From: Hominimerdicola alba 8
GTDB lineage: Bacteria; Bacillota; Clostridia; Oscillospirales; Ruminococcaceae
DNA: 64,000 nucleotides
Assembly (NCBI RefSeq): GCF_000178155.2
Contig: NZ_ADKM02000134.1
Coordinates: 1 to 64,000, forward strand
Reading direction: 5' to 3'
Position 1 is the first letter of the stretch. Each line of letters starts with the position of its first letter. Shown here piece after piece: positions 3,528 through 55,325 of the stretch. The notes beneath the pieces are model-generated. The model did not search any database. It saw only the letters and a list, made by a program, of their open reading frames with translations, and was not told the origin of the DNA. The translations under genes were made by a program, and so were the position numbers.

Positions 3528-3635
3528 TGTTTTAACCCTCCCTGAAAAATTAAAAGATTGTTTTACGTACTTGCAGCTTACCCGGCTGCATTTTCCTGAT
3601 TGGTACGATCGCATTCTCCCCCGAAAATACAGAGA

Positions 3636-3714: not shown

Positions 3715-3719
3715 TAGCT

Positions 3720-4085: not shown

Positions 4086-4117
4086 AGAAAAAGCGGCAGT
4101 CTTTTGAAAGACTGCCG
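4086..4117 (-). terminator. Intrinsic terminator of the second cellulase gene
   Basis: CGGCAGTCTTT (4117-4107 on the minus strand) pairs with AAAGACTGCCG around a two-base loop, followed by CTTTTT. The GCAGTCTTT motif is also part of the first cellulase's terminator, so the two 3' ends may share ancestry. Confidence 0.85.
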
Positions 4118-4151
4118 CCGATAACGTTTAAGTTGATGGGATATGCCCTTA

Positions 4152-6611
4152 TCACTTTACAGTGACCTTGACTGCGTTCTTGATAGCGTTTACAGTGTCC
4201 CACTTGCCGTTTACTCTAGCAGCGATAGCTACCTTGTAGCTCATGCCGGGAGTCATGTTCTTAGGCGAAGTGTAGCTGTTGGTGGTGATGTTTGAAGTCT
4301 GTATCCTCCACTTGCCTGCGAGATATACTGCGATACCGTACTTGTCAGCGCCATCTACCTTGTCCCATGTGAAGCGCATCTGATGATACTGCTCGCTGTA
4401 AGCTACCTTGATGTTGGTAGGATAAGTTACAGAAGGTGTAGGATCGGGCTGAGGTGTTACAGTGCCGTTTCCTCTTGTGAATGTGTAGTCGGACTTTGTA
4501 GCCTTAGTGCCGTCAGGCTCGGTGCCCCATACATGTACGCCGTTTACATACATCGGCATCTGCTGGTTGAGCGAATCAGCCTTCTTGAGGTCGGTAGCGG
4601 TAGCTATGCCGCCCTTGTAAGACCAGTCGTTTGTAGGATCCCAAGCGCCTGTGGTAGGCTTGCCGTTAACAGCATCGGGAATGGAGATCCTGAACTGAAC
4701 TTCATCGCGGTGTTCGCTCTGACCTGTAGGCTGTATTGCTCTGCCGTCCTCAAACTTGATCGAAGCGTAGAGCGTGTTGCCCGACTTGTCGCCTGCGTAA
4801 ACATAAGGACCTGTAACGGTAGCATAGCCCTGCTGACCTGCCTGATACTGCTGTGACTTGCCTTCTACCTTGATATCATCGATAGTCAGACCTGCATCGA
4901 ATATCTCGGAAGCGTCGAAGTAATATCTGTACTCGATATCCTTAGCTACTCTTGCGGGCCAAGCGGTGTGGTTCATAGCCCAAGCCTTTATCTCGGTGTA
5001 GCTGTTGCCCTTGCCGTTGAGGACTGCCGCAACTTCCCATTCTGCCCACTTTGGAGTTTCCTGTGCAGGGAAGTTCGAGAGCGGCTTGCCGCCGTGATCG
5101 TCTATCATAGCGCAGAGTGCTGCGGTGTAGCCTGCGTTGTAGTCGATAGCTACCTCAGTGTATTCGTACTGACCAACGCCTATCTTTTCGATATCGTAGT
5201 TGCCCTGACTGTCAGGACCGCCTATAAGTGCGCCGTAGAGGGTGTGTGCATATTCTGTCTGCCAGCCCTCATCGCCGCCCGAACTCTGACCCAGACTGTT
5301 CCAGTGGTCATCATGTATGCCTGAAGCAGTTCTGTGGTGGATAGCTATCGGGTTCTTATCGCCCATGCCGAGAACGTAGCAAAGACCGAGATCATTGTCT
5401 CCCAGACAGTAGTTCATCTGTGACTCAGCCCAGTCATTGTACTTCTTCACCTTAGCAGAGTCGTCCTTGAAGATGGTGTCACTTGCCAGCTTAGCGATCC
5501 ATGCAGTGTTGGTAGCGTGGCGCAGCGAACCCCAGTTTGTCAGGTGAGAAAGTCCGTCAGAGGTTATGTTGCCCTCGAACTTCTTGATGTTGCTGTCTGC
5601 TTCGCCCATCCAGTAGCGGATATGCTTGTCTATGTGGTTCACCCACTCCTGCTTGCCTGTGATCTGCGCGTACAGCAGAGCGGCTGCCTGTGTGGTATCG
5701 TCCCAGCAAAGACCCCATGAATACTTCCAGTTGGTGGACTGGCTCTCGGTGGGGAAGTTGGGGATATATTCATTCTCGACCTTTTTCAGGTAAGAGGTAT
5801 CGCCTGTAGCCTTGTACAGCCAGAGTGCTGCATACATGCAGTCATCGAGCCATGTGGAAGTAGGATACATGCTGCCCATGCCGCCTCTGTCCTTAGTATC
5901 TCTTATCTTGTCAGCGCCCGCAAAGAGGTCTTTTGCATGCTTGAGGTACTGCGCTGCTGTGGTTGGGTCGGAATCCTTGAATATCAGATAGCCCTCAGCC
6001 AGTGCCGCAGCGGAAATGCCTGCAACAGAAGCGTTCTCGATTATATCGTAGGGGCGCTCCCAATCGCCGCCGTTGAGGTGATGCTTGCGAAGATATACCT
6101 CAGCGCTGCACCAGATGTTGTGGTCGGTAGAACCGCCCTCAAAGTCACCGATAGTGCCGACCATCTTGCCGTTGCCCTGATCGCACGCCATAACGTAATC
6201 AAGACCCCATTTGAGGTTGTTGCGGTAGAGTTCGCCCATACCTGCCTTATCAACAGCGTCCTTATACTCAATGTAGCCCCAGCCCATCATAGCGGCTGAG
6301 TAAGCATTTGTCAGTGTGAACTTGAAGTGGTCGCCTGCGTCGAACCAGCCGCCCTTCACGAAATCGGTTTCTTCGCCGTCCTCGTTCACCATCGAGTCGC
6401 CTCTCCACTGAACGTTGTTCCATTCGGGAAGTTTGCCCGATTGCTGCACTTCGTAGAAGAACATGGACTTCTGGAGTGCTTCTGCGTAGTTATATGCGGA
6501 AGCTGCGTTTGCCTTTACCATCGGAACAGAAGCGTTCTTAGGTAAAGCGGTCGCCATACCTGCGGTCAGTACAAGTGCGGATACTGCTGCGGTGATCTTT
6601 TTAAATACCAT
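4152..6611 (-). CDS. Secreted GH9 endoglucanase with CBM3c-like and CBM37 modules
   Basis: Processive-type GH9 cellulase of 819 residues. The start at 6611 is set by GGAGGAG just upstream and a following signal peptide (about 1-36). The GH9 barrel begins YNYAEALQKSMFFYEVQQSG (from about residue 39) and carries DAGD at 91-94 and the acid Glu486 in TEVAIDYNAGYTAAL; an HHRTASG motif is also present. It is followed by a CBM3c-like module (about 520-690), a Pro/Thr linker and CBM37 (729-819). GH9 followed directly by CBM3c is the classical architecture of processive endoglucanases, where CBM3c feeds chains to the active site. Its CBM37 is nearly the same as that of the neighbouring cellulase. Regulated through the operator at 6642-6653. 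Confidence 0.93.
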   Translation of the reverse strand: MVFKKITAAVSALVLTAGMATALPKNASVPMVKANAASAYNYAEALQKSMFFYEVQQSGKLPEWNNVQWRGDSMVNEDGEETDFVKGGWFDAGDHFKFTLTNAYSAAMMGWGYIEYKDAVDKAGMGELYRNNLKWGLDYVMACDQGNGKMVGTIGDFEGGSTDHNIWCSAEVYLRKHHLNGGDWERPYDIIENASVAGISAAALAEGYLIFKDSDPTTAAQYLKHAKDLFAGADKIRDTKDRGGMGSMYPTSTWLDDCMYAALWLYKATGDTSYLKKVENEYIPNFPTESQSTNWKYSWGLCWDDTTQAAALLYAQITGKQEWVNHIDKHIRYWMGEADSNIKKFEGNITSDGLSHLTNWGSLRHATNTAWIAKLASDTIFKDDSAKVKKYNDWAESQMNYCLGDNDLGLCYVLGMGDKNPIAIHHRTASGIHDDHWNSLGQSSGGDEGWQTEYAHTLYGALIGGPDSQGNYDIEKIGVGQYEYTEVAIDYNAGYTAALCAMIDDHGGKPLSNFPAQETPKWAEWEVAAVLNGKGNSYTEIKAWAMNHTAWPARVAKDIEYRYYFDASEIFDAGLTIDDIKVEGKSQQYQAGQQGYATVTGPYVYAGDKSGNTLYASIKFEDGRAIQPTGQSEHRDEVQFRISIPDAVNGKPTTGAWDPTNDWSYKGGIATATDLKKADSLNQQMPMYVNGVHVWGTEPDGTKATKSDYTFTRGNGTVTPQPDPTPSVTYPTNIKVAYSEQYHQMRFTWDKVDGADKYGIAVYLAGKWRIQTSNITTNSYTSPKNMTPGMSYKVAIAARVNGKWDTVNAIKNAVKVTVK

Positions 6612-6641
6612 CTTATAACTCCTCCTATAAATTGAATAACT

Positions 6642-6715
6642 GAAAACGTTTTCGATACTAAAAAACTATCGTATCTGAACAATACAACTATAACATATTC
6701 GGGGCTGTTTGTCAA
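6642..6715 (-). promoter_or_regulatory. Promoter and palindromic operator of the second cellulase
   Basis: On the minus strand: -35 TTGACA (6715-6710), 17-base spacer, -10 TATAGT (6692-6687). The perfect palindrome GAAAACGTTTTC (6642-6653) lies about 39 bases after the -10 and 31 bases before the start codon. It fits the LacI/CcpA operator style and repeats the geometry of the neighbouring cellulase. Confidence 0.7.
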
Positions 6716-6940
6716 TAAGGCGTAAAATAATTTAACTTTCTTCTACAAATTTATTTAATATTTACCTACTCCCTTGCTGGGCAGATATTTTCCCTGTTTG
6801 CCGTGATATCTTCGGTGCTGCGCGGTATACTATGCTGTCAAAGCCTTTGTGTCAGCACCACTTTAACGTTTTCGGAAAAGTCGGTCTGTGCGATATTGAA
6901 GTTGTCTTGTGCAGCATTTTCACCATACTATTTATATTAT

Positions 6941-7060
6941 GACTATCCCTTTAGCACACCAACTAAAAATGCGGTGAACAAAAGGATAATTGAGCACCAT
7001 ACGCCAAGAACCTTAAGTTCTGTATAGCCTCTGTTTTTGTGGTGTGTCAGCGGGATAACC
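6941..7060 (+). repeat. Dispersed palindromic element, family A, copy 1
   Basis: About 115 bp with imperfect terminal inverted repeats: left TATCCCTTTAGCACACCA (6944-6961), right TGGTGTGTCAGCGGGATA, ending at 7057. The middle holds ACGCCAAGAACCTTAAGTTC. Related copies are at 18649-18758, 41183-41268 and 46537-46641. No open frame; it resembles a MITE or a structured RNA repeat. It occupies the otherwise featureless gap between the second cellulase promoter and the dockerin gene's terminator. Confidence 0.8.
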
Positions 7061-7100
7061 ACAATTTATATTAAATGACATTATCTCTCTGCAAGTATAA

Positions 7101-7129
7101 AGACCTCCCGCGCTCGCTGCGGGAGGTCT
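7101..7129 (-). terminator. Hairpin terminator after the dockerin gene
   Basis: AGACCTCCCGC (7101-7111) and GCGGGAGGTCT (7119-7129) form an 11-bp stem with a 7-base loop, 17 bases past the stop at 7146. The T tract on the minus strand is weak (CTTTATACTT). Confidence 0.65.
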
Positions 7130-7145
7130 TGTATCGGTTATGATA

Positions 7146-10100
7146 TCATTTGAGGAACTTGATCCCCTTGACATGCGCCGCCAGCTTTGCAACATCGGTT
7201 ACGTTCAGTTTGCCGTCACCGTTTATGTCTGCTGCTATGAACCTGTCATCGGCTATCTGCTTTATTCCTTTTATGTGTGCTGCCAGCTTTGCAACATCGG
7301 TGACATTTATCTTCCCGTCGCCGTTTATGTCGCCCAGCATTGACTGCTGATGTTCGTTGGATCCATCTCCGCCCTGTTCGCCTTCAGCTATCCCGAACTC
7401 CAGGGAAACTGTACCGTTGTAAACTCCCTTGCCCTTGACGGTTATCTTGCCTTTGCCGACGCCCATGTTGTTGTAGTAGCTTACGATGTAATCAACGCCC
7501 TCAGTCAGTACCGTGTCACCGTTCATCACAGTGACTTCGGGTTCGACTGCAACGCCTGTGTACTTATAATCCTCAGAAGCTATCGAGATGCTGCATCTTT
7601 CAAGATTTTTCACGGTTATCAGGAAAGATTTCTGCAGCTTGCCGCTGTATCTGCCCATACCTTCCGCTGTAACGAAAGCTGTGCCGATGTTAACGTTGTT
7701 CGAGAAGCTGATAGTGTAGTCAACGCCGTATATCAGTGTTTCGCTGCCGTTGGTTATGGTCACATCGGGTCTGATCTCTGTGCCTGTGTATTCGATAGTG
7801 CTTTCAGAGAATGACATTGTAAGTTCGCTGATATCTCTGACTGTTATGTAGAAGTTTTCGGTGAGCGTTCCGCTGTATCTGCCCATGCCTGTAGCGATGA
7901 CAGTGGCAGTTCCGACCTCTGTGTTGTTCTGATATGAGAGTGTGTAGTCAGTGCCGTTAACGAGTGTGACATCACCTTTCTTTATAACGACCTCAGGTTC
8001 TATCGCTGAACCTGTGTAAGCAAAGGTATCATTTGGCAGTGTCATGGTTATGCCTGCCACGCTCGCACTCTTTATTATGAATGTTTTTGAGAGCGTTCCG
8101 CCGTACTTGCCTTTGCCTGTTGCGGTGACGGTCGCTGTGCCGATGTTGGTGTTGTTCTGGTAACTCAGTGTGTAGTCTGTACCGCTGACCAGTGTAGTGC
8201 TGCCGTCCTTGATGGTCACATCAGGCTTTATCTGTGAACCTGTGTATTCAAACGAAGCTGCCTGCATCGTCATTGTGCAGCTGCCGAGATTTCTCAGACC
8301 GATGGTGAATTCTTTGGTGATGCTGCCGCTGAAATTGCCCTTGCCCGTTGCAACTACCTTAGCAGTGCCCGCATTGATATTGTTTGAATATGACAGCGTG
8401 TAGTCAGTGCCGTTCACCAGCGTGGAACTGCCGAATTTTATGGTGACATCGGGCTTTATCTGCGAACCTGTATAATCAAAGGAAGATGCCGACAGCGTCA
8501 TGGTGCAGCTGTTTATATCTTTCGCCTTGATGGTGTAGGTCTTGCTTACTGTGCCGCTGTATATGCCTTTGCCTGCTGCGGTGACGGTCGCTGTGCCGAC
8601 TTTTGTGTTGTTCGAGTAAGAAAGTGTGTAGTCGGTACCGTTCACAAGAGTGGTACTGCCGTTCTTGATGGTGACGGTGGGTTGTATAGCGTAGCCTGTG
8701 TAATCAAATGAAGTGGGCGATATAGTCATTGTGCAGTCGCTTATGCTGTTTGAACCGATGGTGAAGGTCTTGGAGATAGAACCTGAGTAATTGCCCTTGC
8801 CTGAAGCTACAACAGTAGCGACACCTACCCCGATATTGTTCGAGAAAGTCAGCGTGTAATCTGTGCCGTTCACAAGAGTCGTATTTCCGTCTTTCAGTGT
8901 AACAGTCGGCTGTATCGCATACCCTGTATATTTAAATGAAGATGCGTTCAGCGAGATGGTGCAGCTGCTTATCTTCTTTGCGCTGATGGTGAAGGTCTTG
9001 GACAGCGAACCGCCGTATTTGCCCTTGCCCGAAGCCGTTACAGTAGCCGTACCCGCCTTGATATTGTTGGAATATGAAAGTGTGTAATCTGTACCGTTAA
9101 CAAGAGTGGTACTGCCGTTTTTTATGGTAACTGTGGGCTGTATCGCTGAACCTGTGTAAGTGAAGCTGGTCGCTGAAAGCGTCATGGTACAGGTGTCGAT
9201 ATTTTTCATGCCAATGGTGAAAGTCTTCGAGATAGTTCCCGTATACTTGCCCTTGCCTGTAGCGGTAACAGTAGCAGTGCCGATATTAGTATTGTTGGAA
9301 TATGAAAGTGTATAATCTGTTCCATTTACAAGAGTCGTACTGCCGTTCTTGATGGTCACAGTCGGCTGTATAGCCGAACCTGTGTAATCAAAAGAAGTTG
9401 CACTGAGGGTCATTGTGCAGTCGCTTATCTTCTTTGCGGTTATGGTGAAAGTCTTGGAGATCGTACCTGTATAATTTCCCTTACCTTTGATGGTCACAGT
9501 CGCGGTGCCGATGTTTGTGTTGTTGGAATATGAAACCGAGTAATCTGTACCATTCACAAGAGTCGTACTGCCGTTCTTTATAGTGACAGTCGGCTGTATA
9601 GCCGAACCTGTATACTCAAACGAAGTTCCTGATAAAGTCATAGTACAGCCGTTGATATTAGTGGCGCTCTTAGCCGATATCGTGAAAGTTTTCGAGATAG
9701 TTCCCGTATACTTGCCCTTGCCTGTGGCGGTAACAGTAGCAGTGCCGACGTTAGTGTTGTTGGAATATGAAAGTGTATAATCTGTACCGTTAACAAGAGT
9801 CGTACTGCCGTTCTTGATGGTCACAGTCGGCTGTATAGCCGAACCTGTGTAATCAAAAGAAGTTGCACTGAGGGTCATTGTGCAGTCGTTTATCTTCTTT
9901 GCGGTTATGGTGAAAGTCTTGGAGATCGTACCTGTATAATTTCCCTTGCCTGTGGCGGTAACAGTAGCAGTACCGATATTAGTGTTGTTGGAATATGAAA
10001 GTGTGTAATCTGTGCCATTAACAAGAGTCGTACTGCCATTCTTGACAGTGACAGTCGGCTGTATAGCCGAACCTGTGTACTCAAATGAAGTTCCTGATAA

Positions 10101-12812
10101 AGTCATAGTACAGCCGTTGATATTAGTTGCGCTCTTAGCCGATATCGTGAAAGTTTTCGAGATAGTTCCTGTGTACTTGCCCTTGCCTGTAGCGGTAACG
10201 GTAGCAGTGCCGACATTAGTATTGTTGGAATATGAAAGTGTATAATCTGTACCATTCACAAGAGTCGTACTGCCGTTCTTGACAGTGACAGTCGGCTGTA
10301 TAGCCGAACCTGTGTAAGTGAAACTGCTCGAAGAGAGCGTCATGGTACAGCCGCTTATCTTCTTTGCGGTTATGGTGAATGTCTTAGATGTAGAACCGCT
10401 GTATTTGCCCTTGCCTGTGATGGTCACAGTCGCGGTGCCGATGTTTGTGTTGCTGGAATATGAAACCGAGTAATCTGTACCGTTCACAAGAGTCGTACTG
10501 CCGTTCTTGACAGTGACAGTCGGCTGTATAGCCGAACCTGTGTACTCAAATGAAGTTCCGCTGAGTGTGACTGTGCAGCTGCTTATGCTGTTAGCAGTTA
10601 TGGTGAATGTTTTGGATACAGTCCCCGTGTACTTGCCCTTGCCCGTAGCGGTAACAGTAGCAGTGCCGACATTATTATTGTTGGAATATGAAAGTGTGTA
10701 ATCTGTACCGTTAACAAGAGTGGTACTGCCGTTCTTGATGGTCACAGTCGGCTGTATAGCCGAGCCTGTGTAGGTGAAACTGCTCGAAGAGAGCGTCATG
10801 GTACAGCCGCTTATCTTCTTTGCGGTTATGGTGAAAGTTTTTGAAGTTGAACCGCTGTACATGCCCTTGCCTGTGATGGTCACAGTCGCGGTGCCGATGT
10901 TTGTGTTGTTGGAATATGAAACCGAGTAATTGGTGCCGTTAACAAGAGTCGTACTGCCGTTCTTGACAGTGACAGTCGGCTGTATAGCCGAACCTGTGTA
11001 CTCAAACGAAGTTCCGCTGAGTGTGACTGTGCAATTGCTGATGGGTGTCAGCGTGCCGAAAGTCAGCAGGTTAACAAGGTTGCCCGAATACTTGTTTGTG
11101 CCGTTGGAGTCAAGCGCCGCAGTGCCCTTGCCTACTATCTTTATGTATTTGAATTTCAGGTCGTTGTAGAACGCGCTTGCCTGAATATTCGTGCAGCTTG
11201 CGGGGAAACACAGCGTTTCCGCCTCGACAGCGGCACCGATAGGGGAGAGGGTCTGTAGTGCGGTGCAGCCCTTAAAAGCCGTTCCGCTGACTGCCTTTAT
11301 GTTGCCCACAGTCACCGCAGTTATGCCCGTATCGCCCTGAAAACAGCCTACAGGTATGCACTCAACGCCCGATGGCAGGTTTATCTTGTTTTTGTAACTT
11401 GACCACGAACTTGCTGCTTTGGTCATATCTGCTCTTGGATATATGGCGAGCTTTGTGCAGCCCGCAAAAGTGTTGCCGCTTGAATAGTCATATGCGTCAG
11501 AGGTCGAAGTGTCCTCTGTGCGCTTGTATGTGTATGTTTCAACATTATCGGTAAAAACGGTATTACCGTCTAGGTATTTCAGGTCGTCCGAAACCACCAG
11601 CTTTTCCAGCGAAGTGCAGTTCTGAAAAGCGTTTGAAGCTATGGTCGTGCAGGCTGCGGGCAGTGTCACAGCGGTCAGACTGCTGCAGTTGATGAATGCT
11701 GACGAACCTATCACAGCGCAGTTGGAATTTGATGCTGTTTCGTTTCCGAACCAGACAGTGTTCAGACCTGTACAGCCGTTGAAAGTGTAGTTTGGCAGCT
11801 GCTTTATATTTGATGGTATGGTCATGTTTTTCAGTGATGTGCAGCCGTTGAACAGTTTTACGCCCATGTAGCCCAGTCCGTTCGGCAGCGAATTGTTAGA
11901 AGTGTTGCCGTCAACTATCATCTGTGTCAGGGCGACATCGTCCTGAAAAGCGCCTGTATTTATGCTCTTGACCTTTGTACCTTTGCCGAAATCGATAGTC
12001 TTGAGAACTTTGTCGTTCCAGAAAGCCTCCTGACCTATCAGCGAAATGTTTGAATTGTCAGCAAACTTTACACTTGTCAGCGCATTGCAGCTCATAAAAG
12101 CACGCTGACCGATACTTGTCAGCGATGCAGGCAGCGAGAGTGTCGTCAGCGAATTGCAGCCGCCGAAAGCTGTGCTCCCGATAGTAGTGGTCTTTCCGTT
12201 GAAATCTATGCTCTTGATGCCCGAACCTGCGAATGCGCCGTCATCAATGTTTGTGACATTGTTCAGCTGCAATACGCCCGAAGTGCTGCCCACAAATACG
12301 GAGCAGTTTGCAAAAGCCATCTTTCCGATGCTGGTTATGCTGCTGCCGAAAGTTGCATATTTCAGTTTCGCACATGCAGAGAACATGCTTGTGCCGACCT
12401 CGTTTATGAAACCGTCATTGAAAGTAACGCTCTCAAGGTTTTTCACCGTTGTGCTGAAATAAGTCGATGAAGGCGGATTAAGTATTACCTTGCACTTGCT
12501 CAGGTCAACAGAAGAATCCTTTGCTTTCAGGCTGTTGAACAATTCTGTCTTGTAGCCCGAAAAGTTGAAACTGATTGAAGTCGCAGATGTACTGCTGCTG
12601 AAATATGAAGATGTCGGTACGAGCAGTATCGTCATCTTGGTCGTATCAAGTGTTGCTGTCAGCAGTCTGTCGTTTGAATAGACCGTGTAAGTTGCCGCCT
12701 GTGCGGTTATCGGTGCCGCCAGCGGCAGAAACTCCGCGATCTCAGGCACAGGTGCCGCAGCAAAAGTCATCAGCAGTGCCGCGATGCCTGCCGCTATCCT
12801 CTTTTTCATCAT
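7146..12812 (-). CDS. Giant secreted protein: BspA-type LRRs, 16 Ig-like repeats, C-terminal dockerin
   Basis: 1888 residues from the ATG at 12812, chosen because AAGGGGT lies upstream and a signal peptide starts there (MMKKRIAAGIAALLMTFAA). Residues about 60-580 are BspA-type leucine-rich repeats (units such as IGSSAFINCSSLTAVTLP). About 590-1810 are 16 tandem Ig-like repeats of about 75 residues, each with YTGSAIQPTV, NGTDY and GTATVTATGKGKY. Residues 1826-1888 form a type I-like dockerin: two copies of D-x-N-x-D-G-K with VTDVAKLAAH and KGIK, the two halves nearly identical. The dockerin predicts docking to a cohesin; LRR and Ig stalks suggest binding of a surface or host/plant ligand. No catalytic domain is visible. 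Transcribed from its own promoter at 12874-12902, away from the cellulases' operator. Function as adhesin or scaffold partner is inference. Confidence 0.9.
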   Translation of the reverse strand: MMKKRIAAGIAALLMTFAAAPVPEIAEFLPLAAPITAQAATYTVYSNDRLLTATLDTTKMTILLVPTSSYFSSSTSATSISFNFSGYKTELFNSLKAKDSSVDLSKCKVILNPPSSTYFSTTVKNLESVTFNDGFINEVGTSMFSACAKLKYATFGSSITSIGKMAFANCSVFVGSTSGVLQLNNVTNIDDGAFAGSGIKSIDFNGKTTTIGSTAFGGCNSLTTLSLPASLTSIGQRAFMSCNALTSVKFADNSNISLIGQEAFWNDKVLKTIDFGKGTKVKSINTGAFQDDVALTQMIVDGNTSNNSLPNGLGYMGVKLFNGCTSLKNMTIPSNIKQLPNYTFNGCTGLNTVWFGNETASNSNCAVIGSSAFINCSSLTAVTLPAACTTIASNAFQNCTSLEKLVVSDDLKYLDGNTVFTDNVETYTYKRTEDTSTSDAYDYSSGNTFAGCTKLAIYPRADMTKAASSWSSYKNKINLPSGVECIPVGCFQGDTGITAVTVGNIKAVSGTAFKGCTALQTLSPIGAAVEAETLCFPASCTNIQASAFYNDLKFKYIKIVGKGTAALDSNGTNKYSGNLVNLLTFGTLTPISNCTVTLSGTSFEYTGSAIQPTVTVKNGSTTLVNGTNYSVSYSNNTNIGTATVTITGKGMYSGSTSKTFTITAKKISGCTMTLSSSSFTYTGSAIQPTVTIKNGSTTLVNGTDYTLSYSNNNNVGTATVTATGKGKYTGTVSKTFTITANSISSCTVTLSGTSFEYTGSAIQPTVTVKNGSTTLVNGTDYSVSYSSNTNIGTATVTITGKGKYSGSTSKTFTITAKKISGCTMTLSSSSFTYTGSAIQPTVTVKNGSTTLVNGTDYTLSYSNNTNVGTATVTATGKGKYTGTISKTFTISAKSATNINGCTMTLSGTSFEYTGSAIQPTVTVKNGSTTLVNGTDYTLSYSNNTNIGTATVTATGKGNYTGTISKTFTITAKKINDCTMTLSATSFDYTGSAIQPTVTIKNGSTTLVNGTDYTLSYSNNTNVGTATVTATGKGKYTGTISKTFTISAKSATNINGCTMTLSGTSFEYTGSAIQPTVTIKNGSTTLVNGTDYSVSYSNNTNIGTATVTIKGKGNYTGTISKTFTITAKKISDCTMTLSATSFDYTGSAIQPTVTIKNGSTTLVNGTDYTLSYSNNTNIGTATVTATGKGKYTGTISKTFTIGMKNIDTCTMTLSATSFTYTGSAIQPTVTIKNGSTTLVNGTDYTLSYSNNIKAGTATVTASGKGKYGGSLSKTFTISAKKISSCTISLNASSFKYTGYAIQPTVTLKDGNTTLVNGTDYTLTFSNNIGVGVATVVASGKGNYSGSISKTFTIGSNSISDCTMTISPTSFDYTGYAIQPTVTIKNGSTTLVNGTDYTLSYSNNTKVGTATVTAAGKGIYSGTVSKTYTIKAKDINSCTMTLSASSFDYTGSQIKPDVTIKFGSSTLVNGTDYTLSYSNNINAGTAKVVATGKGNFSGSITKEFTIGLRNLGSCTMTMQAASFEYTGSQIKPDVTIKDGSTTLVSGTDYTLSYQNNTNIGTATVTATGKGKYGGTLSKTFIIKSASVAGITMTLPNDTFAYTGSAIEPEVVIKKGDVTLVNGTDYTLSYQNNTEVGTATVIATGMGRYSGTLTENFYITVRDISELTMSFSESTIEYTGTEIRPDVTITNGSETLIYGVDYTISFSNNVNIGTAFVTAEGMGRYSGKLQKSFLITVKNLERCSISIASEDYKYTGVAVEPEVTVMNGDTVLTEGVDYIVSYYNNMGVGKGKITVKGKGVYNGTVSLEFGIAEGEQGGDGSNEHQQSMLGDINGDGKINVTDVAKLAAHIKGIKQIADDRFIAADINGDGKLNVTDVAKLAAHVKGIKFLK
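7385..11060 (-). repeat. Tandem Ig-like repeat array inside the dockerin gene
   Basis: Sixteen in-frame units of about 225-234 bp. Units 1-9 in protein order (DNA right to left) are very similar, with alternating sub-types (FEY then FTY or FDY) that give a two-unit higher-order period. Units 10-16 are progressively diverged towards the dockerin. This pattern fits recent expansion of the N-terminal part by unequal exchange. Confidence 0.85.
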
Positions 12813-12873
12813 GGTCGATACCCCTTTTCCTAAATGTTTGAATACCCTAAAATAAATCAAATTTCCACATTAT

Positions 12874-44718: not shown

Positions 44719-46395
44719 TTATTTACGTATTCCGATGCCGTCAAGCCGTTTTTCAAACTCGTCTTTAGGCAGTGGTCTGTCATAGTGATATCCCTGAGCA
44801 ATGTCACAGCCGTAGCGTTTCAGTATTTCGACCTGAGTTTTGGTTTCAACACCCTCAGCGATACATTCAAGCCCCATCTCCCGCGCCATAGCGACAACGT
44901 ATTTGAACATGACTGTTCGCGGGCTGGACTCATCGTCATCATCTATAGGCACGATGCTCTTGTCTATTTTGATGACGTTCCAGGGGACTTCCTTTATAAG
45001 GTTCAGCGATGAATACCCGCTGCCGAAATCATCGACCGAAGCTGATATTCCCCGTTCCTGCAACCCATTGACCACACGTTTAAGGTCTTTGAACTCCACA
45101 TCGGTAGTAGTTTCTGTCAGTTCTGCCTCGATAAGATGGTGTGGAATATTATGCCTGTCGATTATTTCCATCAGGTGTTTCAACAGGTCAACATCGAGTA
45201 TGTGCTTGCGCGAAAAGTTGACAGAGATGCGCGGCAGCTGTCTGCCCTCATCGAGCCACTGCCGTATATCGCGACAGACATGGTCTATCATGTAGAAATC
45301 CAGCTTGCATATATCCGTATTCTGTTCCAGTATTGGTATAAACTCGTCAGGCGGTATCAGCCTGCCGTCATGCTTCCATCTGCACAGCGCCTCTGCACCT
45401 GTCATTCTGCCATCTCTGACATCGACTTTCGGCTGATAGTAAACGAGAAATTCCTCTTTTTTCAGCGCTTCGGGGAATATGTGCTGTATGGTGGCGTTGT
45501 GTTTTTTTGTGTTGACAAGTTCCTCGCTGTAGAAGATTATATCTTCCCGCCCCGCGCTTTTTGCAATGTATGATGTTGGCATTACCTTGTCAAGCAGGTC
45601 GGAGATGCCCGCATATCTGTAGTCAGCTTCCACTATATAGATGCCCGCAGTGGCGCTGAGCATTATGCTTTCGCCGTAATCTTCACCGAACCTGACAACA
45701 GCACCGCTAAGATGACCGAACACAGCATCTACCTTGTCGGCATCAAATATGGTTATAAAATTATCACCGCCGATTCGGCAGACAGGTATTTCACAGCCCG
45801 TCAGCGCTTCAAGATCGTCAATGAAGCGGCGCATAACAGTGTCGCCGTTCTTTCTGCCTATCTGATTGTTGACCGCCTGAAAATGCCGCAGGTTGAAGTG
45901 TGCCACAGCCTTTCCCTGAAGATCGTTCTTTCCGCCAAGACTTTCGACCTGAGTACAGAAATATCGCAGATTGTGGTAGCCCGATTCGTCTATATATGCG
46001 AAACGGTTCGCGACTTGCTTTAGCATCTGGCGGCTGTTGAACACAAACAGTATCGATATCATCAGCGCGAGCCTGTTCCTAATCCTGTCACACCACTCAG
46101 CACCGCCGTTCAGGTGGAAAAATTCATATATCACAACGCCGCCGCCGTCCGTGACCCTTCTGTCAACGATGACATTATCATCATGCACGCCGTTTTCATA
46201 CAGCACCAGTTTTACTCTGTTATCAGAACCCTCAAGTTCAATGTTCTCATAAAATGTGATCTCCAGCTTTGCCACATCGGATATCCTGCATATGTCACCG
46301 ACAGCTTCTCTGATAACATTCGGGTCGAGAGCATCTTCTGAATCATTCAGCTTTTGAAGAAAATGCCTGAAAGCAACAACAATGTCTTCTGTCAT
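44719..46395 (-). CDS. GGDEF-EAL protein with degenerate GGDEF, likely c-di-GMP phosphodiesterase
   Basis: 558 residues from the ATG at 46395, which has GAGGAGG upstream; the frame continues upstream without a site. The N-terminal 140 residues show no known sensor domain. The GGDEF domain is degenerate (GGDNF at 209-213, so the catalytic Glu is Asn). The EAL domain is intact: EAL at 335-337, LTETTTD and DDFGSGYSSL, residues that bind metal and activate water. The protein should therefore break down c-di-GMP rather than make it. Monocistronic. Confidence 0.9.
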   Translation of the reverse strand: MTEDIVVAFRHFLQKLNDSEDALDPNVIREAVGDICRISDVAKLEITFYENIELEGSDNRVKLVLYENGVHDDNVIVDRRVTDGGGVVIYEFFHLNGGAEWCDRIRNRLALMISILFVFNSRQMLKQVANRFAYIDESGYHNLRYFCTQVESLGGKNDLQGKAVAHFNLRHFQAVNNQIGRKNGDTVMRRFIDDLEALTGCEIPVCRIGGDNFITIFDADKVDAVFGHLSGAVVRFGEDYGESIMLSATAGIYIVEADYRYAGISDLLDKVMPTSYIAKSAGREDIIFYSEELVNTKKHNATIQHIFPEALKKEEFLVYYQPKVDVRDGRMTGAEALCRWKHDGRLIPPDEFIPILEQNTDICKLDFYMIDHVCRDIRQWLDEGRQLPRISVNFSRKHILDVDLLKHLMEIIDRHNIPHHLIEAELTETTTDVEFKDLKRVVNGLQERGISASVDDFGSGYSSLNLIKEVPWNVIKIDKSIVPIDDDDESSPRTVMFKYVVAMAREMGLECIAEGVETKTQVEILKRYGCDIAQGYHYDRPLPKDEFEKRLDGIGIRK

Positions 46396-46524
46396 AACGC
46401 CACCTCCTCTCTGCATCGCTTTAAATGAACATAATGCGTATAATACATTACCATTTAAACACATTATAGCATAATCAATCAGATTTTTCAAGAGCATTAT
46501 AAATTTCATTCACAAATTTACACC

Positions 46525-49223: not shown

Positions 49224-49235
49224 GCAAAAATTCAA

Positions 49236-49267
49236 GTGCACACGGAAAATTCTCCGTGTGCGCTTTT
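49236..49267. terminator. Terminator between convergent operons
   Basis: GCACACGGA (49238-49246) and TCCGTGTGC (49253-49261) form the stem, followed by GCTTTTTG on the plus strand and by an A/T-rich tract with TTTTT on the minus strand. Confidence 0.85.
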
Positions 49268-49271
49268 TGTG

Positions 49272-51512
49272 TCAGAAGCCCTCTTTGTCGCACCAGCTGT
49301 TGACTGCCGCCAGCATGCCGTCGATGTCAAGCACACCGTAGGCAAAGCCCTTGCGAACCAGTTCGGCAGGCAGATGCTCGTCATATTTCTCGAATAACGG
49401 TATCTCTTTCGGATAGACCAGTTCCATCGGGTCGATTGGCTTGTTCGCTTCCTCCCTCAGTGTGCGGAAGAATTCTTCTTTGGTGGCTTTCATCGTGAAC
49501 TGGATAAAGTAAGGTCGGCAGGAATCCAGTCCGCGCATCTTCACCTTTTCTCTGCACCGCACATTCAGAAATCTCTCCAGTGCAAAGAAAGCATAAGTAC
49601 CCACCCATGGGAAAAGCGCCCACATGTCGCCCCCCAGATTTATCAGATTGTCAGTGGTGACTCCCGAATTTCTCGTTGAGATACGCGCCTGTTCAAGTCT
49701 TGCCACAGCGTTCCTCATAAGGTATGGATAACTCTTGTCCTCGCACAGCACCTGTTTCATGCGCTGTAATATCTTTGTGTTTATATCTCCGGGACAGTCC
49801 CCGAAATATGCAGGGACTTTGCCTTTGACGGGTTCGCAGTATACCAGATGACGCTTGTGGTCAAGTTCGGTGACTATCCATACCTGACCCGCGATGGCTA
49901 TTTTTTCACCAACGGGCGGCGGCATCACCAGCGTGCCCAACTCCTGCGACTCGCACCTGACCGTGTACTCCTCGTTCTCCTGAAAAACAGCGTAGAATTT
50001 GAAGTTGTTCACCAGCCGTTCCCCCGCCAGACCCACTATCAGCCCGCCCTCTTCGGTGCGCTGTATGTGTTCTTTCTCTATCAGGTGGCGCAGGAGTATC
50101 TTATAGTCGTCGGCGGTTATGCGGTGGAAATATTTCAGCGTAAGCACCCGCTGTGCCAGCTGTGCGGGTGTCAGTTCGCCGCAGGAAGCCAGTGTTGACA
50201 TGGTCTGGTGATACAGCAGGCTGAACGGCAGGCGGTCAAATCTCGGCGGTTCGACCCACCGCTCTTCCAGATATACCTGCACAAGCGCTATGCCCTGCAA
50301 CAATTTCCACGGGACTGTTGATGGCAGCATAGTTCGCGGTTCGGGCATATCCTCACGCATCACGAACCACATCTCAGGCGGCAGGTCGCGTCTGCCGGTT
50401 CGCCCCATTCTCTGCAAAAATGATGATACCGTAAAAGGCGCATCTATCTGAAAAGCCCGTTCCAGCCTGCCGATGTCTATGCCGAGTTCAAGGGTAGCAG
50501 TGGTGACAGTGGTCATCTGCACATCATCATCTTTCATGGCGGCTTCGGCAGTTTCACGGTATGATGCAGACAGATTTCCGTGATGTATCAGAAATCTGTC
50601 CCGCTCGTGGTTTGCTTCACAGTAAGACCTCAGCGTGGTGGTGACTGCTTCGCACTCCTCGCGCGAATTTACAAAAACCAGACACTTCTTCCCCCGCGTG
50701 TGTTCAAAAACATATCCGATGCCTGGATCGGCGTGCTGAGGTGCTTTGTCGGTGGCTTCTTCAAGTTCGGGCAGTGCTTTTATGTCCTTTTTATTGGACG
50801 CTGCCTGCACATCGCTGACATAGAAATGCTCCATCGAGAGCCGCCAGCGCGTGCCTTTGGCTTCTATTTTAGGTATCGCAGTTCGCCTGCCGCTGCCCGC
50901 GCCCAGAAATTCTCCCGCCGCTTCGGGGTCGCCTATCGTGGCAGAAAGCCCTATCCTTCGGGGATTGACCCCTGCCTGCCTGCAAAGCCGTTCTATTATG
51001 CAAAGTGTCTGTCCGCCTCTGTCGCCCCTCATCAGCGAATGCACCTCATCTATCACGATGAACCGCAGGTCGCCAAACAGCTTTGCTATGGCGGCGTGCT
51101 TGCGCATCAGCATGGCTTCCAGTGATTCGGGAGTTATCTGCAATATTCCCGACGGCTTTTTCAGCATACGCGCCTTATGCGACTGTGCCACATCGCCATG
51201 CCAGTGCCACACAGGTATCCCCGCATCTTCGCAGAGGTCGTTAAGGCGGGTGAACTGGTCGTTTATCAGCGCTTTCAGCGGACCGATGTAAATAGCCCCC
51301 ACCGAGCGCGGCATGTCCTCAGAAAACAGCGTAAGTATCGGAAAAAATGCCGCTTCCGTCTTGCCCGATGCTGTAGAAGCCGTCAGCAGAAGATTGTCAT
51401 CGGTGTTGAATATCACATCGCCCGCCGCCGCTTGTATGGCACGCAGGCTTTCCCAGTTGTTTCGGTATATAAAGTCCTGCACGAATGGTGCATAGCGGTC
51501 AAAAACGTTCAT
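49272..51512 (-). CDS. Lhr-like superfamily II DEVH helicase
   Basis: 746 residues. Walker A TASGKT (47-52), DEVH in FIVIDEVHSLMRG, motif III LSATIG, and motifs V-VI in TTATLELGIDIGRL and FLQRMGRTGRRD. The DEVHSLMRG/RGGQT pattern places it in the Lhr-like group, as in BrxHI of type 2 BREX. After the helicase core comes a winged-helix region and a C-terminal domain without recognised motif. It is the last gene of a minus-strand operon with a TerB-N/C protein, a DUF2791-like ATPase and a P-loop kinase. Two AAGGG-like sites precede the ATG. Likely an ATP-driven DNA or RNA translocase. Confidence 0.9.
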   Translation of the reverse strand: MNVFDRYAPFVQDFIYRNNWESLRAIQAAAGDVIFNTDDNLLLTASTASGKTEAAFFPILTLFSEDMPRSVGAIYIGPLKALINDQFTRLNDLCEDAGIPVWHWHGDVAQSHKARMLKKPSGILQITPESLEAMLMRKHAAIAKLFGDLRFIVIDEVHSLMRGDRGGQTLCIIERLCRQAGVNPRRIGLSATIGDPEAAGEFLGAGSGRRTAIPKIEAKGTRWRLSMEHFYVSDVQAASNKKDIKALPELEEATDKAPQHADPGIGYVFEHTRGKKCLVFVNSREECEAVTTTLRSYCEANHERDRFLIHHGNLSASYRETAEAAMKDDDVQMTTVTTATLELGIDIGRLERAFQIDAPFTVSSFLQRMGRTGRRDLPPEMWFVMREDMPEPRTMLPSTVPWKLLQGIALVQVYLEERWVEPPRFDRLPFSLLYHQTMSTLASCGELTPAQLAQRVLTLKYFHRITADDYKILLRHLIEKEHIQRTEEGGLIVGLAGERLVNNFKFYAVFQENEEYTVRCESQELGTLVMPPPVGEKIAIAGQVWIVTELDHKRHLVYCEPVKGKVPAYFGDCPGDINTKILQRMKQVLCEDKSYPYLMRNAVARLEQARISTRNSGVTTDNLINLGGDMWALFPWVGTYAFFALERFLNVRCREKVKMRGLDSCRPYFIQFTMKATKEEFFRTLREEANKPIDPMELVYPKEIPLFEKYDEHLPAELVRKGFAYGVLDIDGMLAAVNSWCDKEGF

Positions 51513-51657
51513 TTTCTGCCCTTTCCCTTAAAAGCTGTATCTTCATTCTTCTGCGGAAACGCCTGCGCTGAACATTATTGCGGTTCAGGCACCAACAGGC
51601 ATATAAACGGTCGAAACCGTCTTCTTCGGTCATATTGCGGTGTATGTTGTTTTTCAT
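51499..51657 (-). CDS. 52-residue Arg-rich small protein inside the TerB/helicase operon
   Basis: ATG at 51657 with TAGGGGG nine bases upstream, stop at 51499-51501, overlapping the helicase start by 14 bases. The peptide has a CWC motif and a strongly basic stretch (RRRFRRRMK). The frame fills the otherwise empty gap between the kinase and helicase genes, and the overlap suggests translational coupling. No family recognised. It could be a nucleic-acid-binding accessory subunit or only a coupling leader. Confidence 0.6.
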   Translation of the reverse strand: MKNNIHRNMTEEDGFDRLYACWCLNRNNVQRRRFRRRMKIQLLRERAENERF

Positions 51658-51668
51658 TCCATATCCCC

Positions 51669-52160
51669 CTAAAGTCCGAATAAATATTCATCAGCCTCTT
51701 CGCGCGACCTGAACACCGTTACATCTTTATCGCTGTACTTTTCGAGCAGTTCATATATCTTCGGCAGATTTTTTTCGCGGAATTCTTTTATATGGTCCTC
51801 AAAATCGGGGTCAAGTTTTTCCTCGAACCAGGGCATATCGGGGCGCGGCGTGCCCAGCCGTTCCTTAGCGCCCGCCAGACAGACTTCTGTTGGCAGGTCA
51901 AACAGGAACACCTTATCGCATTTTTTTATGCGCTTTTCCATAGTGCGCTGATAGTTGCCGTCTATTATCCAGCTTTTTGTACACATGACAGTTTCCAGCC
52001 TGTGGTCGAAGACCTCCCGCGAAACAGTTGTGTGGTCGGGACGGTGGTAGATAAGGTCAAGGTGGAACAGCGCAAGCCCTGTCAGCGCGGAATATCTGCG
52101 CGCAAATGTGCTTTTGCCCGACCCCGGACACCCGATGACTATCACCCTGTCGGTGTTCAT
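51669..52160 (-). CDS. P-loop kinase of the adenylate kinase/FlaR-like type
   Basis: 163 residues. Walker A GCPGSGKST (10-18), FHLDLIYHRPD, WIIDGNYQRTMEKRI and a FLFDLP strand resemble the family annotated as topology modulation protein or FlaR, small nucleotide or shikimate kinase-like enzymes of unknown substrate. It overlaps the upstream ATPase gene by four bases (ATGA), so it is a true member of the operon. Confidence 0.85.
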   Translation of the reverse strand: MNTDRVIVIGCPGSGKSTFARRYSALTGLALFHLDLIYHRPDHTTVSREVFDHRLETVMCTKSWIIDGNYQRTMEKRIKKCDKVFLFDLPTEVCLAGAKERLGTPRPDMPWFEEKLDPDFEDHIKEFREKNLPKIYELLEKYSDKDVTVFRSREEADEYLFGL

Positions 52161-53473
52161 ATGTCAAATTCGGCAAAATCGCCGCCCGCAGTTTCTTCCT
52201 CAGCCGCAGGCTTTGAATACTCAAAGCCGCCTGAGGTGATAGTTTCCGAAATGTTTATCTCAGGGTTCTGGAAAGCGATGTCGAGAAGTTCGATGAAATC
52301 GCGTATCACCTCACGGGGCGTGATGTGGCTGTCAGCCCCTATCCGCCCGAATTCGGTCTTGATGAAGACTATCATATCCTCCTGCGTTATGCGCTGTTCA
52401 TAGCCGAAAAGCTGTGCGTGTATGTCAGCCAGCTTTTCGGTCAGCACAAGCATCTCCTCATAAGTCAGCGGGACAAGGTGTATCACAGGTGCGAGCATAT
52501 CCCGTATGCCCTCGCGTCCGAAGCGCCCCTCAGCAAGGCGCGAGCGCAGTGCTTCATAGCTGTATACGCCCCGTCTGGTATCCTCTATGCACTGCGGAGT
52601 GCCGCCCATTATTATGCCGAGATACTTCGCCTTTCCCTGTAAAGTGTCGTTGTACATCGTAAGTATCTTTTCGTAGTTGTACTGTCTGGTGATGGCGTTG
52701 GGTATCTTGTATATGTTCACCAGTTCGTCCACCAGCACCAGCAGACCGCTGTAGCCCGCCATTTTCAGGAACATGGCGAACAGCTTTATGTACTCATACC
52801 AGTCATCGTCCGTGATGATGATGTTTACGCCAAGTTCGCCCTTAGCTTCTGTTTTGTTTACATATTCGCCCCTGAACCACTTGACTACTTTTGCTTTCTG
52901 TTCGTCATCACCCGAAACAGCCGCGCGGTAGTAGATAGTCAGCAGTCTTGCAAAGTCAAAGCCGTGAACCATCTCATTCAGTGCGTTTATCACCTGATAT
53001 ATCTTCTTCTCCACTTCTGCCGCAAATTCGGGCGAAGTCGGTTCGAGTCCGCTGTCAGCCGCCGCTTCTGCCTGCACACCGCTTATCCAGCGGTCGAGTA
53101 TGAGCGTCAGCGCACCGCCGTCGGGACGTGTTTTGGTGGACATGTTGCGTATAAGTTCCTTGTAGGTCGCAAGACCCTGACCCTTTGTGCCTTGCAGACG
53201 GCGTTCGGGTGAAAGGTCGGCATCTACCACCACGAAATTCCTGTCCATCACATGGCTTCTGATGGTCTGCAAAAGAAAACTTTTGCCGCTGCCGTATTTG
53301 CCCACGATAAATCTGAAAGACGCACCGCCGTCCTCGATTATGTCAACATCGTGCAGAAGCGCATCTATCTCGACTTCTCTGCCCACTGTTATATACGGCA
53401 GACCTATTCTCGGCACAACGCCGCCTTTCAGTGAATTTATCACAGCCGAAGCTATCCTCTTTGGTATCTTCAC
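52157..53473 (-). CDS. DUF2791/BrxD-like P-loop ATPase
   Basis: 438 residues. Walker A VGKYGSGKSF (57-66), Walker B LLVLVDELVNI and a sensor-like GTPQCIEDTRRG. The pattern of a BREX-type ATP-binding domain (DUF2791, related to BrxD/BrxC) is clear: REVEIDALL near the start and RSRLAEGRF late. In type 2 BREX this family accompanies an Lhr-like helicase, as here, but no methylase, PglZ or PglW is present. It overlaps the TerB gene upstream and the kinase gene downstream by four bases each. Confidence 0.87.
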   Translation of the reverse strand: MKIPKRIASAVINSLKGGVVPRIGLPYITVGREVEIDALLHDVDIIEDGGASFRFIVGKYGSGKSFLLQTIRSHVMDRNFVVVDADLSPERRLQGTKGQGLATYKELIRNMSTKTRPDGGALTLILDRWISGVQAEAAADSGLEPTSPEFAAEVEKKIYQVINALNEMVHGFDFARLLTIYYRAAVSGDDEQKAKVVKWFRGEYVNKTEAKGELGVNIIITDDDWYEYIKLFAMFLKMAGYSGLLVLVDELVNIYKIPNAITRQYNYEKILTMYNDTLQGKAKYLGIIMGGTPQCIEDTRRGVYSYEALRSRLAEGRFGREGIRDMLAPVIHLVPLTYEEMLVLTEKLADIHAQLFGYEQRITQEDMIVFIKTEFGRIGADSHITPREVIRDFIELLDIAFQNPEINISETITSGGFEYSKPAAEEETAGGDFAEFDI

Positions 53474-54984
53474 GGAAGTATCATTCCTTTCAGTTCTTCT
53501 TCGTAATCCTCTATGACAACAGGCGTGTCACCGTCAAATGTCAGTACTGTATCTGCAAAAGCGTCATACAGCTTTTCATTTATGCTGTCAGCCATAAGTG
53601 ACGGCATAGAACCGGTTTTCTGTGCCGCCTGACGGCAGTCGCCGCCGTATAAAATCGCCTGCATGAAAGCGTATTCTCCGTCATTCAGCGGCGTGCTGTT
53701 CTGCACAGCATCATCATGCTCCTCCTCTGCCGTGACAGTCGGTTCGGGCTGAGATGTCGGCTCATCATCGTACTCTTCTTCAACTATCAGCTTGTCACGT
53801 GTGATGGCGGCGGCGCGGCGTATGCTTCCCAGCTTTGAGAGGTCTATCTCGACTTTTGCGGCTTCTTCACGCTTTTTGCGTTCGGTCAGTTTATCTATCT
53901 GCTCGCTTATCACCTTTTGCATCTGCTTGGTTATGTCGGGGCATTGCAGGCTCTTTTTGAAGCCCAGCTTTGTCCGCATCATGCTGTCCACCGCCCGCAG
54001 GAGGTCGCCCAGTTTTTTCTTGCTGTGGGGCTTGCCCGAATATTCCTCGCAGTACCACAGCCCGTTTGAGAACACGTATCTGCGCACTTTGTCTATCTCA
54101 TATACCGTGTGCTTTGTGACGCGGTGGTGGCAGAATACCGACATCGCGAACATGCTGTGGGTCGTGGTAGATATATTTCCGAAAAACTTGTAGAACAGGC
54201 TGTTCTGCCTGTGTGCGGCGTAGTAGGCGTTCAGTTCCAGATAGCTTCCCGCCGCCACTGCCGCAAAATCTTCGGGACAGGTCTTGTAGAAAGTCGAACG
54301 TTCTGCGTTGTAGGAAGAAAGTGTGTTCATTGCAGAAAACAGTTCTTCCTCAGAGTGTTCGGCAGGACTTTTCAGTGTCATAAGAGCCTTGTCAAATATT
54401 ATGTTCTCACTGCATTCCAGAAGTGATATGTCAAGGTCGTAATATATCACCATGTCAAACAGCCATTTTTCGATGTAAGTCTTCAGCTTCGGCTGTAGTT
54501 CACCGTAGTGTTCGAGTATCATCTTCATGTTGCTGTAAGCGTCTATGCGTTTTTGTACGCCTATAAGATTTATCATCTCATAGCAGTAGATGAATATGTA
54601 TGACAGGCTTATATCGGGGTATTCTCCCTTTCTGACCATAGTGCGCCAGCCAAAATAAGTGCGCTGCTGCGGCAGTGTCATATCTGAATATGTAGGTGAG
54701 TATTTTTCAAACGGAACAAAGTCAGTGCAGCTGTCTTCATAGCCAGCCATGAAATTTCCCTGTTTGTAGAAAAGCCACTCGCGCGATTTCCACTGTGCTT
54801 CGGGCAGGTAGACCATTCGGCGCATCTCCATCAGCTTAGGCGGAGTATCCTGCTTCGGTATAACATCCTGCACAAGCTGAGAAGCACGTTTTAAAATGGG
54901 TTCATCTTTATATATCTTATCACTGAGTTCTTTCAGCTTAGTGTCACCCATGATAAGTTCTATAAGGTCTTCGATATTTTTCAA
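53470..54984 (-). CDS. TerB-N/TerB-C domain protein
   Basis: 504 residues from a TTG start (54984) placed by GGGAGGT seven bases upstream; the frame extends 11 codons further without a site. Residues about 75-180 form a TerB-N domain (YKQGNFMAGYED, QQRTYFGWRTMVRKGEYP). The C-terminal part has a TerB-C domain (LSKLGSIRRAAAITRDKL), an acidic linker and a helical end. TerB-N/TerB-C proteins occur next to ATPase and helicase genes and are predicted to act in stress or DNA-processing complexes rather than tellurite resistance itself. First gene of the operon. Confidence 0.85.
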   Translation of the reverse strand: MKNIEDLIELIMGDTKLKELSDKIYKDEPILKRASQLVQDVIPKQDTPPKLMEMRRMVYLPEAQWKSREWLFYKQGNFMAGYEDSCTDFVPFEKYSPTYSDMTLPQQRTYFGWRTMVRKGEYPDISLSYIFIYCYEMINLIGVQKRIDAYSNMKMILEHYGELQPKLKTYIEKWLFDMVIYYDLDISLLECSENIIFDKALMTLKSPAEHSEEELFSAMNTLSSYNAERSTFYKTCPEDFAAVAAGSYLELNAYYAAHRQNSLFYKFFGNISTTTHSMFAMSVFCHHRVTKHTVYEIDKVRRYVFSNGLWYCEEYSGKPHSKKKLGDLLRAVDSMMRTKLGFKKSLQCPDITKQMQKVISEQIDKLTERKKREEAAKVEIDLSKLGSIRRAAAITRDKLIVEEEYDDEPTSQPEPTVTAEEEHDDAVQNSTPLNDGEYAFMQAILYGGDCRQAAQKTGSMPSLMADSINEKLYDAFADTVLTFDGDTPVVIEDYEEELKGMILP

Positions 54985-55019
54985 GAATTGCACCTCCCGC
55001 ACAATAGGTATACACACAT

Positions 55020-55048
55020 ATTATACCATATATCCCCGCCGATTTCAA
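55020..55048 (-). promoter_or_regulatory. Promoter of the TerB/helicase operon
   Basis: Minus strand -35 TTGAAA (55048-55043), 17 bases, -10 TATAAT (55025-55020), about 36 bases ahead of the TTG start. Confidence 0.6.
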
Positions 55049-55178
55049 GTCTTGACGGTACATCTTAACGGACTCGAAAAGCAAAAGCGGCAGTTCGCTG
55101 TATATTATAGCGGATATAACACCACTCTGAGAGCTGTCACGGCACGCTCGCCAAAAGCAGATATTTCAGCAAAAGCGC

Positions 55179-55207
55179 TTGACATTTTGAAAAAAAGGAG
55201 TTATAAT
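55179..55207 (+). promoter_or_regulatory. Promoter of the thiamine operon
   Basis: TTGACA (55179-55184), 17 bases, TATAAT (55202-55207). Divergent from the TerB operon promoter. Confidence 0.75.
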
Positions 55208-55225
55208 ATAACGGTAAACGAATAA

Positions 55226-55310
55226 ACGGGGAGCTTGTAGGCAGGCTGAGAGGATAGCGACAGAGCTATCGACCCGCGACCTGATTTGGATAATGCCAAC
55301 GTAGGGACAT
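55226..55310 (+). promoter_or_regulatory. TPP riboswitch (thi box)
   Basis: Contains GGGGAGCTTGTAGGCAGG-CTGAGAGGAT, ACCTGATTTGGATAATGCCA and ACGTAGGGA, the diagnostic thi-box segments that bind thiamine pyrophosphate. Followed by a terminator hairpin, so it controls transcription of thiS to thiC. Confidence 0.95.
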
Positions 55311-55325
55311 AACAAACCGAACTAT

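Follow-up and report, generated by a model that had tools for sequence, protein, structure and literature searches.

A Shango-type operon in the Ruminococcus albus clade with two probable passenger genes between sngB and sngC

Shango, reportedly first described by Millman et al. in 2022, is an anti-phage system defined by three co-directional genes in one operon. In Pseudomonas aeruginosa PA14 it consists of a TerB-like protein, an ATPase and a DEAD/DEAH helicase. On plates its protection is modest (10–100-fold) and covers many phages, though not all; in liquid it is generally strong. Shango was newly identified in Escherichia coli as well at that time (PMC10250203). Rumen genomes have also been reported to contain it (PMC13356809), and its helicase, SngC, has been grouped with BrxHI, DruE and DpdJ (PMC12278908). 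Here we describe an operon of Hominimerdicola alba 8 (contig NZ_ADKM02000134.1 of assembly GCF_000178155.2), located in a stretch of 64,000 nucleotides (nt; positions 1 to 64,000, hereafter the window). We are confident in reading it as a Shango anti-phage operon of the Ruminococcus albus clade in which two optional passengers separate sngB from sngC.

Identity of the operon and its relation to BREX

Five open reading frames (ORFs) are confirmed on the minus strand in one apparent operon, which runs from position 54984 down to 49272. The product of the first gene contains the Pfam domains TerB_N (E-value of 3.5e-33) and TerB_C (6.4e-23) and matches the PADLOC model of SngA with 245 bits (6.6e-73). 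The second product matches BrxC_BrxD in Pfam (4.7e-171), and in PADLOC it scores 638 bits with SngB (2.4e-192) versus 156 bits with BrxD. The fifth contains DEAD and Helicase_C domains as well as the motifs DEVH (residue 155) and QRMGRTGR, and scores 921 bits with SngC (1.5e-277) versus 431 bits with BrxHI. Since SngA, SngB and SngC are the best PADLOC matches, far above BrxD and BrxHI, the operon adds a further member to a known system: its three large genes, for the TerB protein, the ATPase and the helicase, are almost certainly sngA, sngB and sngC of Shango. All three are co-directional and follow the order A-B-C, B and C being separated by two additional genes. The core genes, their order and their domains (TerB, BrxD-like ATPase, BrxHI-like helicase) are thereby the same as in described Shango, whereas the two extra genes are a difference, as is the position between sufD and thi genes instead of within a defence hotspot of the kind of cDHS1 in P. 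aeruginosa. The original prediction, made from the window alone, had recognized the five genes and their families, with which Pfam and PADLOC agree, and had suspected defence, which is probably right. It had also considered the combination little described; in fact, Shango is published, phage-tested (PMC10250203) and reported from rumen genomes (PMC13356809). The genome of the window has one SngB. The closest SngB record, at 100% identity, comes from a metagenome-assembled genome of an uncultured Ruminococcus, followed by named R. albus strains at 93%.

In the chosen reading, sngA (53470..54984, minus strand, as are all five genes) starts with a TTG codon behind GGGAGGTG and encodes a TerB_N/TerB_C protein of 504 amino acids (aa), a call based on PADLOC SngA, Pfam and AlphaFold2; the mechanically defined ORF begins at a GTG at 55017 and has 515 aa. 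It is followed by sngB (52157..53473), which has a GTG start and encodes a BrxD-like AAA+ ATPase of 438 aa with an intact Walker A motif at residue 58. Next come a gene for an accessory PRK08118-like P-loop kinase (51669..52160; 163 aa), an ORF for a small basic protein (51499..51657; 52 aa, 55–60 aa in kin) and sngC (49272..51512), which encodes a BrxHI/Lhr-like superfamily 2 helicase of 746 aa. ATGA overlaps had been predicted to join the first three genes; this is true of the junction of sngB with the kinase gene, but sngA and sngB are joined by a GTGA overlap formed by the sngA stop and the GTG of sngB. The kinase gene is separated from the small ORF by an 11-nt gap, and the small ORF overlaps the start of sngC by 14 nt. 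In agreement with the predicted single promoter, one strong sigma-70-like promoter-like site, TTGAAA-17-TATAAT (55020..55048, minus strand; 11/12 consensus), lies upstream of sngA, in a scan that consisted of consensus matching only and returned 10 promoter-like sites versus 6.2 expected by shuffling. After sngC, between this gene and sufD, there is a terminator-like hairpin (49234..49265; scored as such on both strands).

Type 2 BREX (bacteriophage exclusion) contains a homologous ATPase–helicase dyad, BrxD and BrxHI, and the matches of SngB and SngC to the models of these two proteins could be taken for the remnant of a reduced type 2 BREX. We rejected this candidate, which has next to no chance of being correct: both proteins score far higher with the Shango models, by the margins given above, and SngB reaches 157.4 bits with the NCBIfam equivalog model of BrxD, well below its cut-off of 350. 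Moreover, PglZ (PF08665) has no match in the genome of the window, which is 98.78% complete, and the operon has a TerB protein instead. PglW and a methylase are not among the five operon genes either (no genome-wide search was made for these two). The original prediction, which saw a BREX-like ATPase–helicase pair but none of the BREX core genes, is in line with these results.

The association of the three core genes was surveyed in 128 loci with distinct SngB, the window not counted, on stretches reaching about 1.5 kb beyond SngB. SngC lies after SngB at a distance of up to 60 nt in 82 loci, of 61–300 nt in 17 and of more than 300 nt in 13; in three, the SngC match lacks its 5' part. Two loci are rearranged, with sngC located upstream, between sngA and sngB, in L010 and inverted in L079. 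No SngC match was found on the stretch in the remaining 11 loci, three of which have less than 300 nt left. SngA is adjacent upstream in 109 of the 128 loci and further upstream in eight, and has no match in 11. The order of the core genes recurs in these loci.

Accessory genes between sngB and sngC

The kinase aligns over nearly the full length of the models PRK08118 and PRK07261 ('DNA topology modulation protein'), kinases of this kind being called FlaR-like here. It scores below the curated cut-offs of both (123.9 bits versus 215 in the case of PRK08118), yet better than with adenylate kinase models, and differs from these kinases also in being encoded inside a defence operon. Within the nine loci of the R. 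albus clade (window, L002–L008 and L219), the kinase gene is intact in five (window, L002, L003, L004 and L008), reduced in two (L006 and L007) to a remnant that has suffered deletions and contains stop codons, and absent from two (L005 and L219). In the survey, which includes eight of the clade loci, the kinase has a match in seven of the 128 loci, two of them being the remnants in L006 and L007, and no match in 121, some stretches ending early; outside the clade it is present in one of 120 loci (L042). At the genome level, a comparison of two lists for the 297 genomes of the family gave 83 with a kinase match and 38 with SngB, the ten with both being close to the 10.6 expected. In only two of these ten, the window and genome G003 with its remnant, is the kinase located beside sngB. 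Within the genus, a kinase match is present in 11 genomes, four of which lack a match to SngB. This kinase family is common and mostly located away from Shango.

The 52-residue protein has no match in Pfam, and its predicted structure is a single basic helix of low confidence (predicted local distance difference test, pLDDT, 60.5). The ORF is open in eight of the nine clade loci and broken in L002. Five of 294 family genomes have relatives of it but no SngB match. One of them is encoded in a minus-strand run (L274:6508–10108, genome G117) with a LexA-like helix-turn-helix/S24 protein, a Y-family polymerase and an SRAP protein, a context that hints at a link of the small-protein family to DNA damage; no SOS link was seen at three other neighbourhoods of the family (L272, L273 and L275).

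Elsewhere the gap between sngB and sngC holds other ORFs, seen in L012, L054, L061, L062, L069 and L111, one kind being an ORF of 95 aa. As read from translations, they include an ArsC/Spx-like gene (L061 and L069), clusters with a NUDIX-like gene (L054 and L062) and a peptidyl-prolyl-isomerase-like gene (L111). Because the kinase is patchy in the clade and nearly absent from the other Shango loci surveyed, shows no excess co-occurrence with Shango and has its place taken by other ORFs, the kinase and the small protein are quite probably optional cargo, that is, lineage-specific inserts. The original prediction had counted both as parts of the system; the lack of a kinase match in most surveyed loci, its degradation or absence in four of the nine clade loci and the mostly off-Shango location of its family speak against this.

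Alternatively, the operon might represent a Shango subtype that uses the kinase, and perhaps also the small protein, as a functional part, for instance to phosphorylate a nucleotide or signal on which SngA or SngC depends. We consider this unlikely. The kinase is under purifying selection where it is intact (ratio of nonsynonymous to synonymous substitution rates, dN/dS, of 0.155–0.208 for the five pairs that were computed), its Walker A motif is intact and it is coupled to sngB by the ATGA overlap; however, it is degraded or absent in the four clade loci mentioned above, the SngABC frames of which stay open, and the survey, the chance-level co-occurrence and the unrelated ORFs in the same gap of other loci argue in the same direction. 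The tree of 39 kinases can be read both ways. The six copies from Shango loci group with one stand-alone gene in a clade of seven with moderate support (93/78, bootstrap not fully settled), but the stand-alone kinase falls among the Shango copies, so that the latter do not constitute a clade of their own. A point against optional cargo is L042, which belongs to a second Shango lineage and has the kinase inside its operon, likewise joined by ATGA; this gives some evidence that the two are functionally linked. Its near kin L038 (SngB 97.2% identical) has a plain sngB–sngC junction without the kinase, suggesting a recent gain in L042.

Divergence of SngA and a possible division of roles

Protein identity between the window and the eight other clade loci is 59–80% for SngA, versus 93–100% for SngB and 89–99% for SngC. 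Among 77 loci, pairs with SngB at least 97% identical (n = 7) have a median identity of 84.8% in SngA and 96.9% in SngC, and pairs with SngB 85–90% identical (n = 280) have 44.5% and 84.0%, respectively. The dN/dS of SngA is 0.104–0.155 in the three window pairs with computable dS, versus 0.006–0.041 for SngB and SngC in window pairs. Comparison with the sister locus L002 revealed a divergent tract (53901..55200, minus strand), delimited by sliding identity and four-fold degenerate sites, which covers the promoter region and sngA codons 1 to about 360. The tract is 63–89% identical per 100 nt, whereas sngB and sngC are 96–97% identical overall; beyond approximately codon 360 the identity rises again to 89–100% within sngA. 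At the protein level, codons 1–345 are 76% identical and the rest 89%. Four-fold sites differ between the window and L002 at 64 of 160 positions in sngA, versus 118 of 1108 in sngB, sngC, thiG, thiH, sufC and sufD (Fisher p = 2.6e-18). The thiF (18/86) and kinase (12/64) genes were kept out of this pool because they are moderately raised; with both added, the pool stands at 148/1258 (p = 6.9e-17). In the control pair L006/L007, sngA is, if anything, lower (43/199 versus 178/553 in sngB and sngC; p = 0.005), which argues that sngA is not simply prone to mutation. The promoter and the first ~70% of sngA look as if they had been replaced by recombination between two sister genomes. No donor of the tract was found among the nine clade loci, and the exchange may extend as far as thiF or reflect several events.

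Two points qualify the fast divergence of SngA. Many of the dS values lie above 1, close to saturation, and L006/L007, a pair without saturation, shows a smaller contrast (dN/dS of 0.060 for SngA, 0.034 for SngB and 0.030 for SngC). In addition, the neighbouring thiF is fast as well (dN/dS of 0.09–0.17 in window pairs, next to its raised four-fold sites), so rapid protein change alone is no proof of an arms race.

BrxD and BrxHI of BREX have been described as a tight pair in which the ORC/Cdc6-like BrxD possibly loads BrxHI, in a paper that names neither TerB nor Shango (PMC12839542). Carrying this loader idea over to Shango, we infer that SngB, as an ORC/Cdc6-like AAA+ ATPase, would load or activate the SngC helicase on incoming phage DNA, and that motor action on this DNA would block phage replication. 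SngA, the diversifying part, with weak fold matches to winged-helix DNA-binding domains in its C-terminal part, would serve as the recognition subunit or the trigger. As no nuclease was recognized in the operon, we favour stalling or stripping, rather than cutting, of the phage DNA. The kinase and the small protein would not be needed; they may be captured genes that share the transcription of the operon and act at most as modulators. We propose this loader–helicase mechanism with SngA as the sensor tentatively, as a possibility somewhat short of even. No paper on the mechanism of Shango was among those listed in literature searches, and a 2026 review lists it as unknown in a table row that also holds Hachiman, the mechanism of which is published; the row is thus not a careful census (PMC12926258).

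The AlphaFold2 model of SngA is confident (mean pLDDT 88.3) and combines a helical body at the N-terminus with a C-terminal part. The best match in a fold search is to LysR-type DNA-binding domains and, at an E-value of 0.6, weak, which is a point against the proposal. These LysR-type or winged-helix matches appear, from a reading of the secondary structure, to fall on the C-terminal TerB_C part. A fold search among viral proteins gave nothing under an E-value of 0.08, and a sequence search in solved structures gave one match, at 0.5.

A wider and rather speculative reading, which we regard as unlikely, is that Shango is cassette-like as a whole. A conserved SngB/SngC motor would be combined with a recognition subunit, SngA, of which the promoter and N-terminal 70% are exchanged between close relatives by recombination, and the slot between sngB and sngC would repeatedly take up small enzymes (the PRK08118-like kinase in at least two lineages, ArsC/Spx-like genes and NUDIX-like clusters) that widen or regulate the response.

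Genomic site, distribution and implications

The operon is flanked downstream by the end of sufD and upstream by thiS-thiF-thiG-thiH, suf and thi being names read from translations. The thi genes are headed by a thiamine pyrophosphate (TPP) riboswitch (55217–55324, plus strand; tool result), which in the region 55179–55324 is preceded by a consensus sigma-70 promoter-like site (12/12). Both the sufD and the thi flank are present in seven of the nine clade loci and one flank in the other two: L003 breaks off within sngC, leaving just the thi side visible, and L008 has just the suf side, its upstream gene being EAL/GGDEF-like in place of thi. Extra ORFs are located between sngC and sufD in L004, L006, L007 and L219. 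In L219 (9788–12389; genome G002), about 2.6 kb with, by our own reading, transposase-like pieces lie between sngA and thiS. In the congener G023, sufD and thiS are 268 nt apart with no operon between them, which represents an empty site. An EAL/GGDEF protein is also encoded in the window beyond the suf genes (44719–46509); it is 57–78% identical among clade loci, and in L008 it is found on the opposite side of Shango. Farther away, the window contains two cellulases of glycoside hydrolase family 9 and a leucine-rich-repeat protein of 1904 aa with dockerin and CBM_X2 matches (501–12860, minus strand).

SngB is present in 9 of 29 genomes of the genus, 38 of 297 of the family and 44 of 398 of the phylum (the genome of the window included; the phylum count takes weak matches). 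SngB-like matches occur in 691 of 72,556 plasmid records, all below 60% identity, 542 of these records being predicted conjugative, and the three-gene Shango order is annotated in all three plasmid records examined; SngB was not found in phage records. Hence the operon is patchy at large and stably placed in the R. albus clade.

The surroundings of other Shango loci were scanned with a script that took up to two ORFs of 130–900 aa per side; 61 loci had any, and those with all four gave 156 ORFs. Near-duplicate neighbourhoods were dropped by hand among 148 ORFs, and 100 ORFs from 26 other Shango loci were scanned. Five PADLOC families match at an E-value of 1e-15, each in at most two ORFs, a count rather than an enrichment test. 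An enrichment of defence systems among the neighbours, raised with the original prediction, finds little support here.

These results have to be set against a different role, that of a chromosomal genome-maintenance module (helicase loader, helicase and TerB adaptor), unrelated to defence and fixed in the R. albus clade. The conserved position between sufD and thiS would fit it, and 13 loci of the R. flavefaciens type (query L011 included) likewise share a downstream LysR-type gene of 89–100% identity. The scarcity of defence genes nearby points the same way, as by that measure there are no dense defence islands and no support from an island context. To our knowledge, there has been no phage test of this operon. 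With these points counted against defence, we still hold a maintenance module to be very improbable. The patchy presence in genus and family is not that of a fixed core unit with a housekeeping role, the outcome that had been named as arguing against defence, and the empty site in G023, the SngB-like matches on plasmids, many of them predicted conjugative, and the divergent SngA tract are equally hard to reconcile with it, as is the published protection by a relative (PMC10250203).

As a Shango operon, the locus is instructive in two respects. The insert genes warn annotators that a gene inside a defence operon is not necessarily part of the system. The fast, apparently exchangeable SngA, as opposed to the near-constant SngB and SngC, suggests a simple, testable division of roles, and the window and its sister L002, with near-identical SngB and SngC and different SngA alleles, form a ready pair with which the role of SngA could be tested.

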